Source: Nocardioides panacis
GTDB lineage: Bacteria; Actinomycetota; Actinomycetes; Propionibacteriales; Nocardioidaceae
NCBI RefSeq assembly: GCF_019039255.1
Contig: NZ_CP077062.1
Coordinates: 682,001 to 746,000 of the forward strand
Reading direction: 5' to 3'
Length of the DNA: 64,000 nt
Notes under the pieces: model-generated
What the model saw: the letters and a program-made list of their open reading frames with translations, nothing else
Told to the model about the DNA's origin: nothing
Database searches by the model: none
Position numbers and translations under genes: made by a program
Shown: piece after piece, positions 47,874 to 54,501 of the stretch
Layout of the letters: every line of letters begins with the position of its first letter
Position numbering within the stretch: position 1 is the first letter of the stretch

Positions 47874-49330
47874 CGTTCCTCCGTCGTTCGCTCGCTCTGC
47901 GTCCGTCCAGTCTCCCGGACGTTCCAGCCTATACACGGAAGGCACCCCGGACGGGATGCCTTCGGTGTGCGGAATTCGCGGGACGGGCGCGGGCTAGACC
48001 CCCGGAACCGGTTGATCGCCTCGAGGTGCCGGGCGCGCTTCTCCGGGTCGCGGACACCGAGCCCCTCCTCGGGTGCCAGGCAGAGCACGCCGACCTTGCC
48101 CTGGTGCAGGTTCTGGTGCACGTCGTACGTCGCCTGCCCGACGTCCTCCATCGCGTAGGCGCGCGACAGGGTGGGGTGGATCCGGCCCTGCGCGACCAGC
48201 CGGTTGGCCTCCCAGGCCTCGCGGTAGTTCGCGAAGTGCGAGCCGACGATCCGCTTGAGGCTCATCCACAGGTAGCGGTTGTCGTACTCGTGCATGTAGC
48301 CGCTGGTGCTGGCGCAGGTGACGATCGTGCCGCCCTTGCGCGCGGCGAACACCGAGGCCCCGAACGTCTCGCGCCCCGGGTGCTCGAAGACGATGTCGAC
48401 GTCCTCGCCGCCGGTCAGCTCGCGGATCCGCTTGCCGAAGCGCTTCCACTCCTGGGGGTCCTGGGTGTGCTCGTCCTTCCAGAACCGGAAGTCCTCGGCC
48501 TTGCGGTCGATGATCAGCTCGGCGCCCATCTTGCGGCAGATCTCGGCCTTGTCGGCGCTGGAGACCACGCAGACCGGGGTCGCGCCGCCGTTCAGCGCGA
48601 ACTGGGTCGCGTAGCCGCCCAGGCCGCCGCTGGCGCCCCAGATCAGCACGTTGTCGCCCTGCTTCATCCCGGCGCCGTTGCGGCTGACCAGCTGCCGGTA
48701 GGCGGTGGAGTTCACCAGCCCGGGGCTGGCCGCCTCCTCCCAGGTCAGGTGGGCCGGCTTGGGCATCAGCTGGTTCGACTTCACCAGCGCGATCTGGGCC
48801 AGGCCGCCGAAGTTCGTCTCGAAGCCCCAGATGCGCTGCTCGGGGTCGAGCATCGTGTCGTTGTGGCCCTCGTAGCTCTCCAGCTCCACCGAGAGGCAGT
48901 GCGCGACGACCTCGCGGCCGGGCTGCCAGGTGTGCACGCCCGGTCCGGTCGCCAGCACGACGCCGGCGAGGTCCGAGCCGACCACGTGGTAGGGCAGGTC
49001 GTGCTTCTTGGCCAACGGGGAGGTGCGGCCGTAGCGCTCCAGGAAGCCGAAGGTGGACATCGGCTCGAAGATCGAGGTCCACACGGTGTTGTAGTTGATG
49101 GCGCTGGCCATCACCGCGACGTAGGCCTCGCCGGGGCCGAGCTCCGGCAGCGCGACGTCCTCGACGTGGAGGGAGAGTCGCGGGTCCTTGTCGCGCGTGG
49201 CGAGCCCGTCGAACATGGCGGTCTCGTCCTTGTGGACGGTGACGGCGCGGTAGTGGTCAGGGATCTCGAGATCGGCGTACGCCTCGGCGGACGTCTCGCC
49301 GGCGAGGATGGCATCGAGGATCTGCTTCAC
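47870..49330 (-). CDS. ccrA: crotonyl-CoA carboxylase/reductase
   Basis: Key enzyme of the ethylmalonyl-CoA pathway: NADPH-dependent reductive carboxylation of crotonyl-CoA to ethylmalonyl-CoA. It is an MDR-fold protein with nucleotide motif WGASGGLGGYATQ. All four CO2-binding residues known from Kitasatospora Ccr are present at the same numbers: N81, F170, E171 and H365. As given, the frame reads 486 residues, ending in an unrelated 41-residue tail that overlaps the next gene. One additional G in the G5 run at 47999-48003 would end the protein normally as NRFRGV with a stop at 47994. GTG 49330 has GGAG 7 bases upstream. Confidence 0.95.
   Translation of the reverse strand: MKQILDAILAGETSAEAYADLEIPDHYRAVTVHKDETAMFDGLATRDKDPRLSLHVEDVALPELGPGEAYVAVMASAINYNTVWTSIFEPMSTFGFLERYGRTSPLAKKHDLPYHVVGSDLAGVVLATGPGVHTWQPGREVVAHCLSVELESYEGHNDTMLDPEQRIWGFETNFGGLAQIALVKSNQLMPKPAHLTWEEAASPGLVNSTAYRQLVSRNGAGMKQGDNVLIWGASGGLGGYATQFALNGGATPVCVVSSADKAEICRKMGAELIIDRKAEDFRFWKDEHTQDPQEWKRFGKRIRELTGGEDVDIVFEHPGRETFGASVFAARKGGTIVTCASTSGYMHEYDNRYLWMSLKRIVGSHFANYREAWEANRLVAQGRIHPTLSRAYAMEDVGQATYDVHQNLHQGKVGVLCLAPEEGLGVRDPEKRARHLEAINRFRGSSPRPSREFRTPKASRPGCLPCIGWNVRETGRTQSERTTEER
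47933..47968 (-). terminator. long hairpin between ccr and coiled-coil gene
   Basis: Inverted repeat: outer 4 bp (ACAC/GTGT), then 7 bp (GAAGGCA/TGCCTTC) and 3 inner bp, with single mismatches between blocks. It lies just downstream of the predicted ccr stop at 47994. No U-tract follows, which is common in Actinobacteria. The downstream edge abuts the -10 box of the next gene. Confidence 0.5.
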
Positions 49331-49366
49331 GGTGAGCTCCTGCGTCTGTGCCGGGCGGGTCGCCAG

Positions 49367-49396
49367 AATCTACCGAGCGGTAACGACCGGTGTCAG
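49367..49396 (-). promoter_or_regulatory. promoter of ccrA
   Basis: On the minus strand, CTGACA (49391-49396), an 18-base spacer, and TAGATT (49367-49372) form a good -35/-10 pair inside the 3' end of the GntR gene. It would give a short 5' leader carrying the GGAG ribosome-binding site of ccrA. Confidence 0.55.
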
Positions 49397-50113
49397 CCAG
49401 GTGTGACCTATCTGTCTCGGCGTCCCGCCGAACGCCGTGACCAGCTGGTGCTCGGCCGAGGCGAGGTAGTCGTCCAACCGGTGGGCCGCCTCGGTGGCCC
49501 GTCCCGCCTCGACCAGGTCGGTGATCGCGGCGTTCTCCGTGAGGTAGGGCTGGTGGAAGTCGCCGGGCTGGTTCATCTGGTGGAAGAACAGCCGCATCTC
49601 GGCCAGCAGCAGGTCCATCTGGGCGTCCAGCCGGGTGCTGCCCGCCAGCGCGACGACGGCACGGTGGAAGTGCTGGTTGGCGCTGGCCACGCCCGCCCAG
49701 TCGCCGCGGGCAGCGGCCGCGGTGCCCTCGTCGACCGCGCTGCGCAGCCGGGCCACCTGGGCCTCGTCGGGGGTGCCGGCGGTGAGCAGCGCGGCGGGCT
49801 CGATGAGCCGGCGCACCCGGTAGACGTCCGCCACGTCGTCGGCGTCGGGCGTGGTGACCACGACCCCGCGGTTCGGCTCCCGCACCAGGATCCGCTCGGC
49901 GACCAGCTGGCTGAGCGCCTCGCGCAGCGTGTTGCGCGAGACGCCGATGGCCTGGGCCAGGCGCTCCTCGGGCAGCCGGGTCCCCGAGCGGAGGAGTCCC
50001 TCGACGACCTGCTCGCGCAGCACGCGCGCGGCGCGGTCGGCCGAGGTGCTCATCACCGCACGGTGCCCGCGGCGCTGGTCGGCCAGGGACGTGAGGACGG
50101 CGTCGAGGGTCAT
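49370..50113 (-). CDS. GntR-family (FadR subfamily) transcriptional regulator
   Basis: A 247-residue regulator. The N-terminal winged helix-turn-helix (RLPEERLAQAIGVSRNTLREALSQL) is followed by a FCD ligand-binding domain (residues about 100-225) with metal-site type His residues (ANQHFHRAVV, FFHQMNQPGDFHQPY). Three starts are possible. ATG 50113 is chosen because TAGACT lies 7 bases upstream; ATG 50053 would give a more typical short N-terminus. It is divergent from the 5-oxoproline operon and upstream of ccrA, so it could control either; the palindrome at 50162 favours the operon. Confidence 0.88.
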   Translation of the reverse strand: MTLDAVLTSLADQRRGHRAVMSTSADRAARVLREQVVEGLLRSGTRLPEERLAQAIGVSRNTLREALSQLVAERILVREPNRGVVVTTPDADDVADVYRVRRLIEPAALLTAGTPDEAQVARLRSAVDEGTAAAARGDWAGVASANQHFHRAVVALAGSTRLDAQMDLLLAEMRLFFHQMNQPGDFHQPYLTENAAITDLVEAGRATEAAHRLDDYLASAEHQLVTAFGGTPRQIGHTWLTPVVTAR

Positions 50114-50120
50114 GGACCGG

Positions 50121-50126
50121 AGTCTA
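50121..50126 (-). promoter_or_regulatory. -10 box of leaderless GntR gene
   Basis: TAGACT on the minus strand, 7 bases before ATG 50113. Confidence 0.45.
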
Positions 50127-50154
50127 GCCACGGCCGGTTGTTGGATCGGGGGGA

Positions 50155-50183
50155 TTGCAAAATTGTTGAACAATGCCTAGGGT
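50155..50183 (+). promoter_or_regulatory. promoter and palindromic operator of the 5-oxoproline operon
   Basis: -35 TTGCAA (50155-50160), 17-base spacer, -10 TAGGGT (50178-50183). The spacer contains a perfect 13-base palindrome, ATTGTTGAACAAT (50162-50174), of the type bound by FadR-subfamily GntR regulators. Binding there would block RNA polymerase. It lies between the divergent regulator and the transporter gene. Confidence 0.7.
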
Positions 50184-50240
50184 CGAACGGATTGCTGTGA
50201 TCTGGCCCACGCCGACCGTGACCGTTCTCGAGGAGACCGC

Positions 50241-51479
50241 ATGACCGCTCCCACCCCGCCGCCACCCCGCACCGAGCCCCGGACCCGGACCCGCGAGGAG
50301 TCCAGGCTGGCGCGCTCCGCCCTGCTCGGCGCCGTCTTCCTGATGGCCACCAGCGCGATCGGTCCGGGCTTCATCACCCAGACCGCGACCTTCACCGTCC
50401 AGCTCGGCGTCGCCTTCGCCTGCGCGATCGTGCTGTCGGTCGTCGTGGACGTCGCCGTGCAGCTGAACGTCTGGCGGGTGATCGGGGTCTCCGGACTGCG
50501 TGCCCACGAGCTCGGCAACCGGGTGCTCCCCGGTGTCGGCTACCTCCTGGCCGGGCTCGTGGTGCTCGGCGGCGTGGTGTTCAACGTCGGCAACATCGCG
50601 GGCAGCGGGCTGGGAGTCGAGGCGATGTCCGGGGTCGACCCCCGGATCGGCGGCGCGCTGTCCGCGCTGCTGGCCATCGGGATCTTCGTCAGCAAGAAGG
50701 CCGGACTGGCCCTGGACCGTGCGGTCATCGGGCTCGGCCTGCTGATGATCCTGGCCACCTTGGTCATCGCGATCACCTCCGACCCGCCGGTCGGCGACGC
50801 GCTCGCGAACGTCGTACGCCCGGAGAAGTTCAGCTTCCTGGCGGTCACCACCATCATCGGCGGCACCGTCGGCGGCTACATCACCTACGCCGGCGCCCAC
50901 CGGATGCTGGACTCCGGGCGCACCGGTCCCGAGCACGTCGGGGAGATCACCCGCAGCTCGGTCGTCAGCATCCTGGTCACCGGCCTGATGCGGGCCCTGC
51001 TGTTCCTGGCCATCCTCGGCGTCGTCGTGGGCGGCGCGAAGATCGCCTCCGACGACCCCGCCGGCAGCGCCTTCCAGGCGGCCGCGGGGGAGGTCGGCCT
51101 CCGGGTCTACGGCCTCGTCCTCTGGGCCGCCGCGCTCACCTCGGTGATCGGCGCCGCCTACACCTCGGTGTCCTTCATGACCACGTCGAAGACCCCCGAG
51201 CGCACCCGCAACATGCTCACCGTCGCGTTCATCGCGATCACCGCGGCGATCTACGTGATCGTCGAGCAGACGCCGGTGACGCTGCTGGTCTTCGCCGGGA
51301 CGTTCAACGGCCTGATCCTGCCGATCGGCCTGGGCGTGCTGCTGTGGGTCGCCTGGCGCCGTCGGGACCTGATGAACGGCTACCGCTACCCGGCGTGGCT
51401 GCTCGGCGTCGGCGTGCTCGCCTGGCTGCTGACCCTCTACCTCGGGTACAACGCCGTGCAGATGCTGGGGGACCTGTGA
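50241..51479 (+). CDS. NRAMP-family transporter (YcsG-like) of the 5-oxoproline operon
   Basis: A 412-residue membrane protein with about eleven transmembrane segments and an NRAMP-like first helix ([19 protein letters not shown]). Its gene neighbourhood matches the B. subtilis ycsF-ycsG-ycsI-kipI-kipA operon, in which YcsG belongs to this branch. The NRAMP metal motif DPGN is replaced by GPGF, so it probably moves an organic substrate such as 5-oxoproline rather than a metal (inference). TCGAGGAG precedes the ATG. The stop overlaps pxpA (GTGA). Confidence 0.87.
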
Positions 51480-52234
51480 CCCGGATCGACCTCAACAGCG
51501 ACGTGGGGGAGTCCTACGGGCGCTGGGAGCTCGGCGACGACGCCGCGGTCCTCGGCGTGGTCACCAGCGCCAACGTGGCCTGCGGCTACCACGCCGGGGA
51601 CGCCACCACGCTGCGCCGGACCTGCGTGCTCGCCGCCGAGCAGGGCGTGGTCGTCGGGGCCCAGGTCGGCTACAACGACCTGGCCGGGTTCGGCCGGAGG
51701 TTCATCGACATGGACCCCGTCGAGCTGGTCGACGACATCCTCTACCAGATCGGCGCGCTGGAGGCGCTGGCCCGGGCGGCCGGGGTCACCGTGCAGTACG
51801 TCAAGCCGCACGGTGCGCTCTACAACGCGGTCGTGGAGCACGAGAGCCAGGCCCGGGCCGTCGTGGACGCGGTCCGCACCTACGACCCCGCCCTGCCGCT
51901 GGTGGGCCTGCCGGGCTCGGTGCTGCTGGCCACCGCCGAGCGGGCCGGGCTCCGCACGATCCGGGAGGCGTTCGCCGACCGGGCCTACACGCCGCAGGGC
52001 ACGCTCCTCCCGCGCCGGGAGGCCGGCGCGGTGCTCAGCGACCCGGCCGAGGTCGCCCGCCGGGTGGTGCAGATGGTGGTCGACGGGCACGTGGACGCCG
52101 TCGACGGCAGCCGGGTCACGGTGCACGCCGAGTCGGTCTGCGTGCACGGCGACTCCCCGGGAGCGGTGGCGATGGCGCGGCGGATCCGGGCGGACCTGAC
52201 CGCCGCCGGGGTCGAGCTGGGGGCGTTCGTGTGA
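51476..52234 (+). CDS. pxpA: 5-oxoprolinase subunit A (LamB/YcsF family)
   Basis: A 252-residue LamB/YcsF protein and subunit of the bacterial 5-oxoprolinase PxpABC, which hydrolyses 5-oxo-L-proline to glutamate with ATP. Conserved segments are [39 protein letters not shown] and [12 protein letters not shown] 51476 overlaps the transporter stop, and the 3' end overlaps pxpB by 4 bases. Confidence 0.95.
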
Positions 52235-53724
52235 GCGCGCCGACCGTGCTGGCCTACGGCGACCGGGCGCTCCTCGTCGAGCTCGGGGGCACCGAGCGGG
52301 TCGTCGCCTGGGTGGACGCCCTGCGCCGGCTGGGCGTGGCCGGCGTCGCCGACCTGGTGCCCGCCGCCGAGACCGTGCTGGTGGTCGCCGACGAGGGCGT
52401 GGACGTCCGGGTCCTGCGCGCGGCGCTGGCCGCCGTCGTGCCCGGGGCCGCCGGGGCTCTGCCGTCCGACGGTGACGTCGTGGAGATCCCGGTCACCTAC
52501 GACGGCCCCGACCTGGCCGACGTCGCCCGGCACACCGGCCTCAGCGAGGGCGAGGTGGTCGCGGCGCACAGCGGCGCGCTCTGGCGGGTCGCCTTCGGCG
52601 GGTTCGCCCCCGGCTTCGCCTACCTCGTCGGGGACGACGACCGGCTGCACGTCCCGCGCCGCGACAGCGCCCGCACGGCGGTGCCCGCCGGCGCGGTCGC
52701 CCTGGCCGGCGACTACAGCGGGGTCTACCCGCGCGAGTCCCCGGGCGGCTGGCAGCTGATCGGTACGACGGACCTGCGGATGTGGGACCTCGACCGGGAC
52801 CCGCCCGCCCTGCTCCGTCCGGGGGGCCGCCGTCCGCTTCGTGCAGGTGGACCGGCCGTGACCGGGCGGCTCCGCGTGCTGAGCCCCGGACCGCTCTGCC
52901 TCGTCGAGGACCTCGGCCGTAGCGGCGTCTCGGGCATCGGGGTGGGCCGCTCCGGCGCCGCGGACCGGGCGGCGCTGCGCCTGGCGAACCGGGCGCTGGC
53001 CAACCCCGAGGGCGCCGCCGCCCTGGAGGTGACCCTCGGGGGCCTCGAGCTCGAGGTCGTCGCCGGCCCGGTCTGGCTGTGCGTCACCGGCGCCCCCACC
53101 CCGGTCAGCATCGACGGGCGCGAGGTCGGCCCCTTCGCCGTCGTCGCGGCGGCCGAGGGGTCCGTCGTACGCCTGGGGATGCCGCCGACCGGGCTGCGCT
53201 CGTACGTCGCCGTGCGCGGCGGGGTGGACGCGCCCGCGGTCCTGGGGTCGCGCAGCCACGACGTGATGGCCGGGCTCGGCCCCGCGCCGCTGGCCGCCGG
53301 CGTCGAGCTCGGGGTCGGCGTGCCGCCCCGCAGCCAGCCGCACGTGGACCACCTGCCGCCCGGCCGGACCTCCGAGGAGGTGGTGCTCGGCGTGGTCCGG
53401 GGCCCCCGGGACACGTGGGTGGCGGACGCCGACCTCCTGGTCGCGACGTCGTGGACCGCCTCCGAGCGCAGCAACCGGGTCGGCATGCGGTTGTCCGGCG
53501 GTCGCCTCGAGCACGTCGACCCCGGCAGGCAGCTGCCCAGCGAAGGGGTCTACCGCGGCGGCATCCAGGTCCCGCCGAGCGGCGAGCCGGTGCTGTTCCT
53601 CGCGGACCATCCCGTCACCGGCGGGTACCCCGTGATCGCGGTCGTCGTGGACGCCGACGTCGACCGGGCGGCCCAGGTGCGGCCCGGACAGTGCGTCCGG
53701 TTCTGCTGGGTGGCGGCGCCGTGA
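52231..53724 (+). CDS. pxpBC: 5-oxoprolinase subunits B and C, read as one fused frame
   Basis: The frame encodes PxpB (KipI-type, residues about 1-200; [30 protein letters not shown]) followed by PxpC (KipA-type; [19 protein letters not shown] onward). Together with PxpA they form ATP-dependent 5-oxoprolinase. The fusion is probably artificial. Removing one G from the G6 run at 52821-52826 gives a normal PxpB C-terminus ([11 protein letters not shown]) with TGA at 52859-52861, overlapping a GTG start for PxpC at 52858 (288 residues). Natural PxpB-PxpC fusions do exist, so this must be verified. Confidence 0.9.
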
Positions 53725-54501
53725 ACGTCGCCGACGTGCCGCCCGCCGAGGCCCGGGCCCGCTTCCGGGACGGCCTGGTGACCCCCACCGCGGGCTGGTC
53801 GCGCGGCTGGACGCAGGCCAACCTGATCGCGGTGCCGCGGGACCTGGCCTACGACTTCCTGCTGTTCGCCCAGCGCAACCCCAAGCCCTGCCCGGTCCTC
53901 GACGTGATCGACGCCGGAGCGGTGGCCGGGCCGCTGCTCGACGGCGACATCCGCACCGACGTCCCCGCCTACCGGGTGTACGTCGACGGCGAGCTCGTCG
54001 AGGAGACCCCCGACGCGCGGGCGTCCTGGCGCGAGGACCTGGTGTCCTTCCTGATCGGCTGCAGCTTCACGTTCGAGGGCGCGCTGCTCGACTCGGGCGT
54101 GCCCGTCCGGCACGTCGAGCAGGGCGTCAACGTGCCGATGTTCACCACGTCGCGGCGCTGCCGACCGGCCGGCGCGCTGTCCGGTCCGCTGGTCGTCTCG
54201 ATGCGGCCGGTCCCGGCCGGCCAGGTCGCGGACGCGGTGCGGGTGACCTCACGGTTCCCCGCGGTGCACGGGGCCCCGGTGCACGTGGGGGGACCCGGCG
54301 GCGCTGGGCATCACCGACCTCGGCAGCCCGGACTTCGGCGAACCGGTGGACGTCCGGCCCGGCGAGGTGCCGGTCTTCTGGGCGTGCGGGGTGACCCCGC
54401 AGGCGGTGGTGCAGGAGTCCCGGCCGCCGCTGGCGATCACGCACGCACCGGGGCACATGCTGGTGACCGACGCGCGGGACAGCGACTACCTGGTGCCGTG
54501 A
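53721..54501 (+). pseudogene. YcsI/DUF1445 family (putative hydro-lyase, D-glutamate cyclase-like), frameshifted
   Basis: The family protein starts at GTG 53721 ([57 protein letters not shown]) and runs in frame to about residue 190. After the G6 run at 54287-54292 the frame is lost. With one G fewer it continues [20 protein letters not shown] through [12 protein letters not shown] to TGA at 54499-54501, about 259 residues, the normal length. The mammalian homologue DGLUCY is a D-glutamate cyclase producing 5-oxo-D-proline, which fits the operon. Its 3' end overlaps the convergent epimerase gene by 16 bases. Confidence 0.85.

Follow-up and report, generated by a model that had tools for sequence, protein, structure and literature searches.

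What does the A/T-rich element between a GntR-type regulator gene and the divergent 5-oxoprolinase genes of Nocardioides panacis do, and which compound does it respond to? The element occupies positions 50155-50183 of the window (the whole stretch of 64,000 nucleotides that was analysed). An earlier note had proposed a GntR operator that is released by 5-oxoproline (5-OP) or a related acid. This proposal is supported by what has been reported for PxpR of Corynebacterium glutamicum (PMC13274462): the operator arms, the divergent layout and the kind of operon are the same, and the regulator has reciprocal best matches with its counterpart in a comparison genome (locus L183).

Based on the observed sequence, layout, conservation and homology, and by analogy with C. 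glutamicum, it is highly probable that 50155-50183 serves as promoter and operator for genes of 5-oxoproline (pyroglutamate) utilisation, which form an operon under a divergent PxpR-type repressor. The palindrome ATTGTTGAACAAT within it is almost certainly the docking site of this repressor, because nearly the same switch has been proven in C. glutamicum.

Gene order and the palindrome

The features of the locus are collected in Table 1. The regulator contains both a GntR helix-turn-helix domain (PF00392, 2.2e-16) and an FCD domain (PF07729, 7.8e-19), and its gene diverges from those of the Nramp-type transporter and pxpABC, which is the layout of the PxpR system. KipR, the regulator of the kip genes of Bacillus subtilis, is of the IclR type. 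Gene order and the Pfam/NCBIfam families agree with the earlier placement of the element between a divergent FadR-type regulator and a 5-oxoproline operon. In the last gene of the operon the N-terminal part covers profile positions 8-203 of 266 and the C-terminal part (54301-54498, in another frame) positions 201-264 of 266; the break may be a real lesion (making this a pseudogene) or a sequencing error. In another genome of the same genus (L013, from G033) it is the regulator that is split, its two matches lying in different frames, with operator and transporter retained.

Table 1. Features of the 5-oxoproline locus, in window coordinates
Feature	Position	Strand	Basis
pxpR-like GntR/FCD regulator, 247 aa, ATG at 50113	49370..50113 (stop codon included)	-	Pfam GntR and FCD; reciprocal best matches with Corynebacterium-type PxpR
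TAGACT, predicted -10 for the regulator gene with leaderless-type start, 7 bases ahead of ATG	50121..50126	-	Signature in 21/48 regulators
Predicted -35 hexamer TTGCAA, operon promoter	50155..50160	+	TTG here in 25/58 operator-pxp rows, reverse 0/58
Putative PxpR-type operator, perfect 6-1-6 palindrome ATTGTTGAACAAT (ATTGTT-G-AACAAT)	50162..50174		Arms identical to those of the operator tested in C. glutamicum; conserved before pxp genes
Predicted -10 hexamer TAGGGT (TANNNT type)	50178..50183	+	TANNNT here in 14/58 rows, reverse 2/58
Nramp-family transporter, PxpT/YcsG type	50241..51479	+	Pfam Nramp 5.4e-22
pxpA (LamB/YcsF), 5-oxoprolinase subunit	51479..52234	+	Profile matches
pxpB-pxpC fusion, 5-oxoprolinase subunits	52231..53724	+	CT_C_D and CT_A_B; NCBIfam matches
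D-glutamate cyclase/YcsI-type gene, frame broken near 54290-54300	53721..54501	+	Profile matches of two parts

Behind the regulator on the minus strand, and codirectional with it, lies the crotonyl-CoA carboxylase/reductase gene ccrA (TIGR01751, 4.6e-182). The sole strict sigma-70-like match in 49300-50400 is found before this gene, at 49396-49367 (minus), which suggests that ccrA has its own promoter. PxpR control of ccrA was considered and rejected, as no site is found near the gene at up to three mismatches and it has this promoter-like match.

The 17-base spacer (50161-50177) between TTGCAA and TAGGGT holds the whole palindrome, and the earlier note had placed hexamers, spacer and palindrome correctly. 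It had also held that the A/T-rich palindrome stands out, and this is borne out: among the 62 perfect 6-1-6 palindromes of the window only ATTGTTGAACAAT has at least 9 A/T of 13, whereas order-1 Markov copies of the window (n=40) contain on average 46.75 palindromes and 0.0 with at least 10 A/T. The 29-base element has a GC content of 38%, compared with 72% for the whole window. When up to three mismatches are allowed, the window gives two matches (a single place, on both strands), a count of at least two that is reached by 9 of 100 shuffles and is not rare; the evidential strength of the palindrome lies in its exactness and conservation rather than in this count. A second such palindrome, for instance near ccrA where the earlier note had suggested searching, is found neither there nor anywhere else in the window at up to three mismatches.

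Throughout the genome (4.90 Mb, a single contig) the exact 13-mer has one copy, and the reversed control pattern has no match. It might be argued that the palindrome has arisen by chance and has no role, given that consensus matches are not the same as function and that six further places match with two mismatches. Nonetheless, the only exact copy in 4.9 Mb lies in the right intergenic gap, and its conservation extends over the family, the class sample and more distant genomes, which makes the probability of chance practically negligible. A wider regulon was likewise considered and rejected: the six two-mismatch places were checked for reading frames, five are without an evident target by eye, and one (L007) is the site of a sister regulator (see below).

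Operators of the FadR subfamily contain TKGT...ACMA boxes with a distance between GT and AC of usually 3 bases (PMC4494728). The window operator has this form (TTGT-TGA-ACAA, with GT and AC 3 apart), although the base after GT is T, against M in the older consensus NyGTM-N(0-1)-KACNy.

Relation to PxpR of Corynebacterium glutamicum

In C. glutamicum the divergent GntR regulator PxpR represses pxpTABC (PMC13274462, May 2026). A reporter in which 5'-agattgttcaacaatct-3' was altered or deleted was 6.5-fold brighter in this species, and the available text of that paper credits the first proposal of the site to RegPrecise. As in the window, an Nramp-type transporter gene comes first and pxpABC follows. 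The same paper describes that in B. subtilis homologous enzymes (of the kip genes) and a YcsG-type transporter, both of which the window shares, are required for 5-OP use. The pairing of a GntR regulator with a 5-oxoprolinase operon is already published for C. glutamicum; among the literature matches listed for PxpR, PMC13274462 is the only one that concerns the subject.

The 12 arm bases of ATTGTTGAACAAT are identical to those of the tested C. glutamicum operator agATTGTTcAACAATct, and the core ATTGTT-N-AACAAT is present in the predicted operon promoter. The window differs from C. glutamicum, as far as described (PMC13274462), in the missing outer AG...CT of the published 17-mer, the fusion of pxpB with pxpC and the broken D-glutamate cyclase-type gene that follows.

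Orthology was assessed with the regulator of genome G626 (L183), which stood in for C. glutamicum PxpR itself; we take G626 to be a Corynebacterium-type genome. In this genome the published 17-mer is found without mismatch between genes of the GntR and Nramp families. Its regulator is 38-39% identical to that of the window (38% over 207 aa) and, searched in the window's genome, finds the window regulator first (5.4e-30; runner-up 2.5e-18). The opposite search in G626 finds L183 first (2.6e-30; runner-up 1.5e-11), so that the two are reciprocal best matches. They also have the recognition helix SRNTLRE in common (seen in L183, not in C. glutamicum itself). The deep branches of the regulator tree are weakly supported, so strict orthology of the window regulator to PxpR is considered no more than likely on this sequence comparison. 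The published GlxR site of C. glutamicum matched none of the loci examined.

Position and conservation of the operator

The earlier description of an operator embedded in a near-ideal promoter holds for the embedding, which is conserved in the window's family. Near-ideal is too strong, because the strict sigma-70 consensus scan of 49300-50400 does not report this promoter; by our own count TTGCAA agrees with TTGACA at 4/6 positions and TAGGGT with TATAAT at 3/6. We take TAGGGT to fit the looser TANNNT type of -10. On either strand of the window TTGNNN-(16-18)-TANNNT occurs only once, at 50155-50183.

Both hexamers flank the operator in the operon orientation in 12 of 58 operator-pxp pairs and in the reverse orientation in none of the 58. 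Within the window's family 9 of 11 rows have both, with a spacing of 17 or 18 bases (own count), and outside the family there are three such rows (L066, L081, L114); an operator within the spacer is consequently a family trait and not a general one. In the rows with pxpA first (26 of 30 named-genome stretches) no such hexamer pair is found at these places. L183 has TAAACT upstream of the operator, matching the published C. glutamicum layout, in which the centre of the operator is 65 bases ahead of the pxpT start and some 30 bases downstream from the predicted -10 (PMC13274462), unlike the window, where it fills the spacer. Judged from these sequences, what stays fixed is the operator, while its position relative to the predicted promoter moves between lineages. 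L011 (2260-2308), L018 (2142-2177) and L081 (5197-5233) have the operator twice ahead of the transporter gene, the two starts being separated by 23-36 bases.

For binding and direction of control in Nocardioides panacis we infer that a PxpR-type dimer on ATTGTT-G-AACAAT, between -35 and -10, would keep RNA polymerase off. 5-Oxoproline that enters the cell or forms in it would, as in C. glutamicum, bind the FCD domain and make the repressor leave the DNA, upon which the transporter, PxpA, PxpBC and the downstream gene product would be made. Direct exclusion of RNA polymerase is the simplest mechanism for the window. With its operator downstream of the -10, Corynebacterium may instead be blocked just after the start of transcription, and the blocking step may accordingly differ from that in the window.

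The regulator itself would use a separate promoter of the leaderless type. A TANNNT 5-8 bases before the in-frame start is present in 21 of 48 regulators of the PxpR group, among them the six closest (L008-L012, L045), against 1/48 for the control with out-of-frame start codons; C. glutamicum pxpR is also leaderless (PMC13274462). The operator is centred about 55 bases upstream of the regulator start, which makes strong autorepression unlikely. In divergons a single FadR-family site often acts in both directions (PMC4494728), and the regulator and ccrA are codirectional, so one could suppose that the main role of the site is autoregulation, of the regulator gene together with the ccrA gene that follows it, and not control of the operon. 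We regard this as very improbable: besides the orientation of the flanking hexamers and the promoter match of ccrA, the leaderless-type -10 of the regulator is about 40 bases away, and four loci in which the regulator lies apart from the operon (L054, L066, L083, L092) keep an exact or one-mismatch site at the operon start. In L083, however, a further one-mismatch match is found close to the regulator gene.

Conservation supports control of the operon over a wide range. The family search covered 61 genomes, of which 58 had a match, and 30 loci were fetched; in the best 11 of these 30 (L008-L018, the window's own included) the palindrome is present with at most two mismatches in all. In the class, 76 of 394 genomes matched at 1e-30 or better (79 matches). 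The 30 loci examined, again with the window's own among them, all have an operator match with at most two mismatches, and 17 have an exact one; in L056 this match falls within the regulator gene, and the true site precedes pxpA on the same contig (L039, L174). Genes of the pxp operon are found within 1.5 kb in 21/30 of these loci and within about 7 kb in five more (26/30). The other four (L058, L063, L065, L071; one near a contig end) have no pxp genes within about 7 kb, and in three of them, once read (L167, L169, L173), a metabolite/H+ symporter-type gene faces the regulator. As regulators without nearby pxp genes exist, the operator alone does not prove the ligand.

Several side observations concern such regulators. 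L167 (close to a contig start), L169, L171 and L173 have PxpR-type regulators with an exact or one-mismatch operator, and the symporter-type gene in L167, L169 and L173 matches TIGR00883 just under the cut-off. In L177 (868-2556), a more distant regulator of the group, two one-mismatch operator-like sites face an amino-acid-type ABC transporter gene (SBP_bac_3).

With at most one mismatch the published 17-mer is present in 7 of 394 class genomes (reversed control 0), with a pxp gene or the regulator in only 4 of these 7 loci. In the genus of G423, presumably Corynebacterium, 43 of 201 genomes have a match and one has a match of the reversed control; a pxp gene or the regulator accompanies 21 of the 30 loci that were fetched from the 43. 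Searching named genomes for the 17-mer without mismatches yielded 94 stretches, with no C. glutamicum among those listed. Thirty have an operator match at most 320 bases from the start of a pxp operon, including Arthrobacter, Glutamicibacter, Corynebacterium alimapuense and two Pseudomonas, 5 have a regulator match only, and 59 have neither pxp genes nor the regulator. Because the GC content is below 50% in 48 of these 59, and in 9 the match is no more than 600 bases from the end of the stretch, many are probably due to chance, though a few may still be real sites.

DNA specificity, ligand pocket and significance

A sister GntR/FCD regulator in the same genome (G000:C1:4343378-4344001) belongs to the same family, is about 38-40% identical to the window regulator and has a palindrome of equal length. 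It differs in the arms (ATTGTC-N-GACAAT), in having Ser or Pro for Asn in the helix, in keeping all three FCD metal histidines and in its target. At L007 (1501-1513 and 1526-2467; G000:C1 near 4343378-4345163) it is divergent from a DDAH/arginine-deiminase-like gene, which matches DDAH_eukar and ADI and has homologues beside 13/13 sister loci and L023, but not L022. No paper on DDAH with GntR in Streptomyces was found in the literature search.

Among the 13 sister regulators the site ATTGTC-N-GACAAT is exact for 11 and has one mismatch for 2. Asn61 of SRNTLRE is present in 53/53 PxpR-group rows and in the solved structure 2HS5, against Ser or Pro in 13/13 sister rows, a contrast that is partly circular, as the labels TT, TC and OUT were assigned from operator and neighbours. 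With the position equated by eye, it agrees with a published correlation between Asn at an HTH position and a preference for A/T in the centre of the site (PMC4494728), so that the specificity rule is a known one. The sister clade has 15 tree rows, namely the 13 mentioned, L023 with a hybrid site and L022 without a site (the last two labelled OUT); these rows form a single clade and perhaps reflect one evolutionary event. The regulator alignment excludes duplicates (L001, L046, L061), the split locus L013 and three weak ones (L075, L105, L144); the second tree and the residue counts exclude L030 and L161, whose branches are very long.

FCD regulators commonly hold a metal by three histidines (PMC6608401; TM0439, HypR type). 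In the window regulator the first is kept (H150) and the other two are replaced by N194 and Y216, the columns being matched by eye; the same two residues occur in L183. Over the 53 PxpR-group rows the second place is N in 48, D in 3 and H in 2, and the third is Y in 52 and Q in 1 (Ser in L161, outside this count), whereas all 13 sister rows have His at both. With two of the three metal histidines replaced, a metal-free 5-oxoproline pocket is likely in the PxpR group. The available text of PMC13274462 does not contain the words zinc or histidine and mentions metal only for the transporter.

The fold of the window regulator is known from solved relatives, of which the best match is PDB 2HS5 ('putative transcriptional regulator GntR', E 9.9e-41), whose record names no function. 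It shares with the PxpR group the Asn of the helix as well as the Asn and Tyr of the pocket, and the compared rows that match it best belong to this group, though in the tree it sits on a long branch. From these residues 2HS5 may be an unrecognised member of the group.

By analogy with C. glutamicum, 5-oxoproline is the best-supported inducer in this organism. PxpR of that species bound 5-OP with a KD of 726 nM and did not bind L-proline, L-glutamate, L-glutamine or L-aspartate (PMC13274462; D-glutamate is not among the ligands named in the available text). A PxpR-like regulator might bind the same site and yet respond to a relative of 5-oxoproline, such as D-glutamate, another lactam or an N-acyl amino acid: a D-glutamate cyclase-type gene, though broken, closes the operon, and some PxpR-type regulators adjoin other transporters. 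Given the ligands above, the shared pocket residues and the fact that 5-OP is the substrate of PxpABC, we consider this improbable.

While the control system is a known one, what is new here is the movable operator, the loss of two FCD metal histidines and the orphan regulators beside other transporters. More tentatively, and perhaps rather against the odds, PxpR-type regulators might constitute a widely spread FCD branch without the two metal histidines, in which the operator ATTGTT-N-AACAAT is frozen and its promoter position differs between lineages (the spacer in the window, downstream of the -10 in Corynebacterium, some other place in pxpA-first operons of the Arthrobacter type). Members without pxp genes would then mark candidates for 5-oxoproline uptake, i.e. 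the MHS-type symporter or amino-acid ABC transporter facing the regulator.

The operator together with Asn in the helix and Asn/Tyr in the pocket provides a search rule for naming 'GntR' genes, and by this token 2HS5 may already offer a structure for the PxpR group. Parts of the window may be usable for 5-oxoproline biosensors in high-GC bacteria. PxpR was described only in 2026, and reading the window from its sequence alone led to the same type of regulator. Overall, the conservation observed suggests that PxpR control reaches from Corynebacterium to other actinobacteria and some Pseudomonas.
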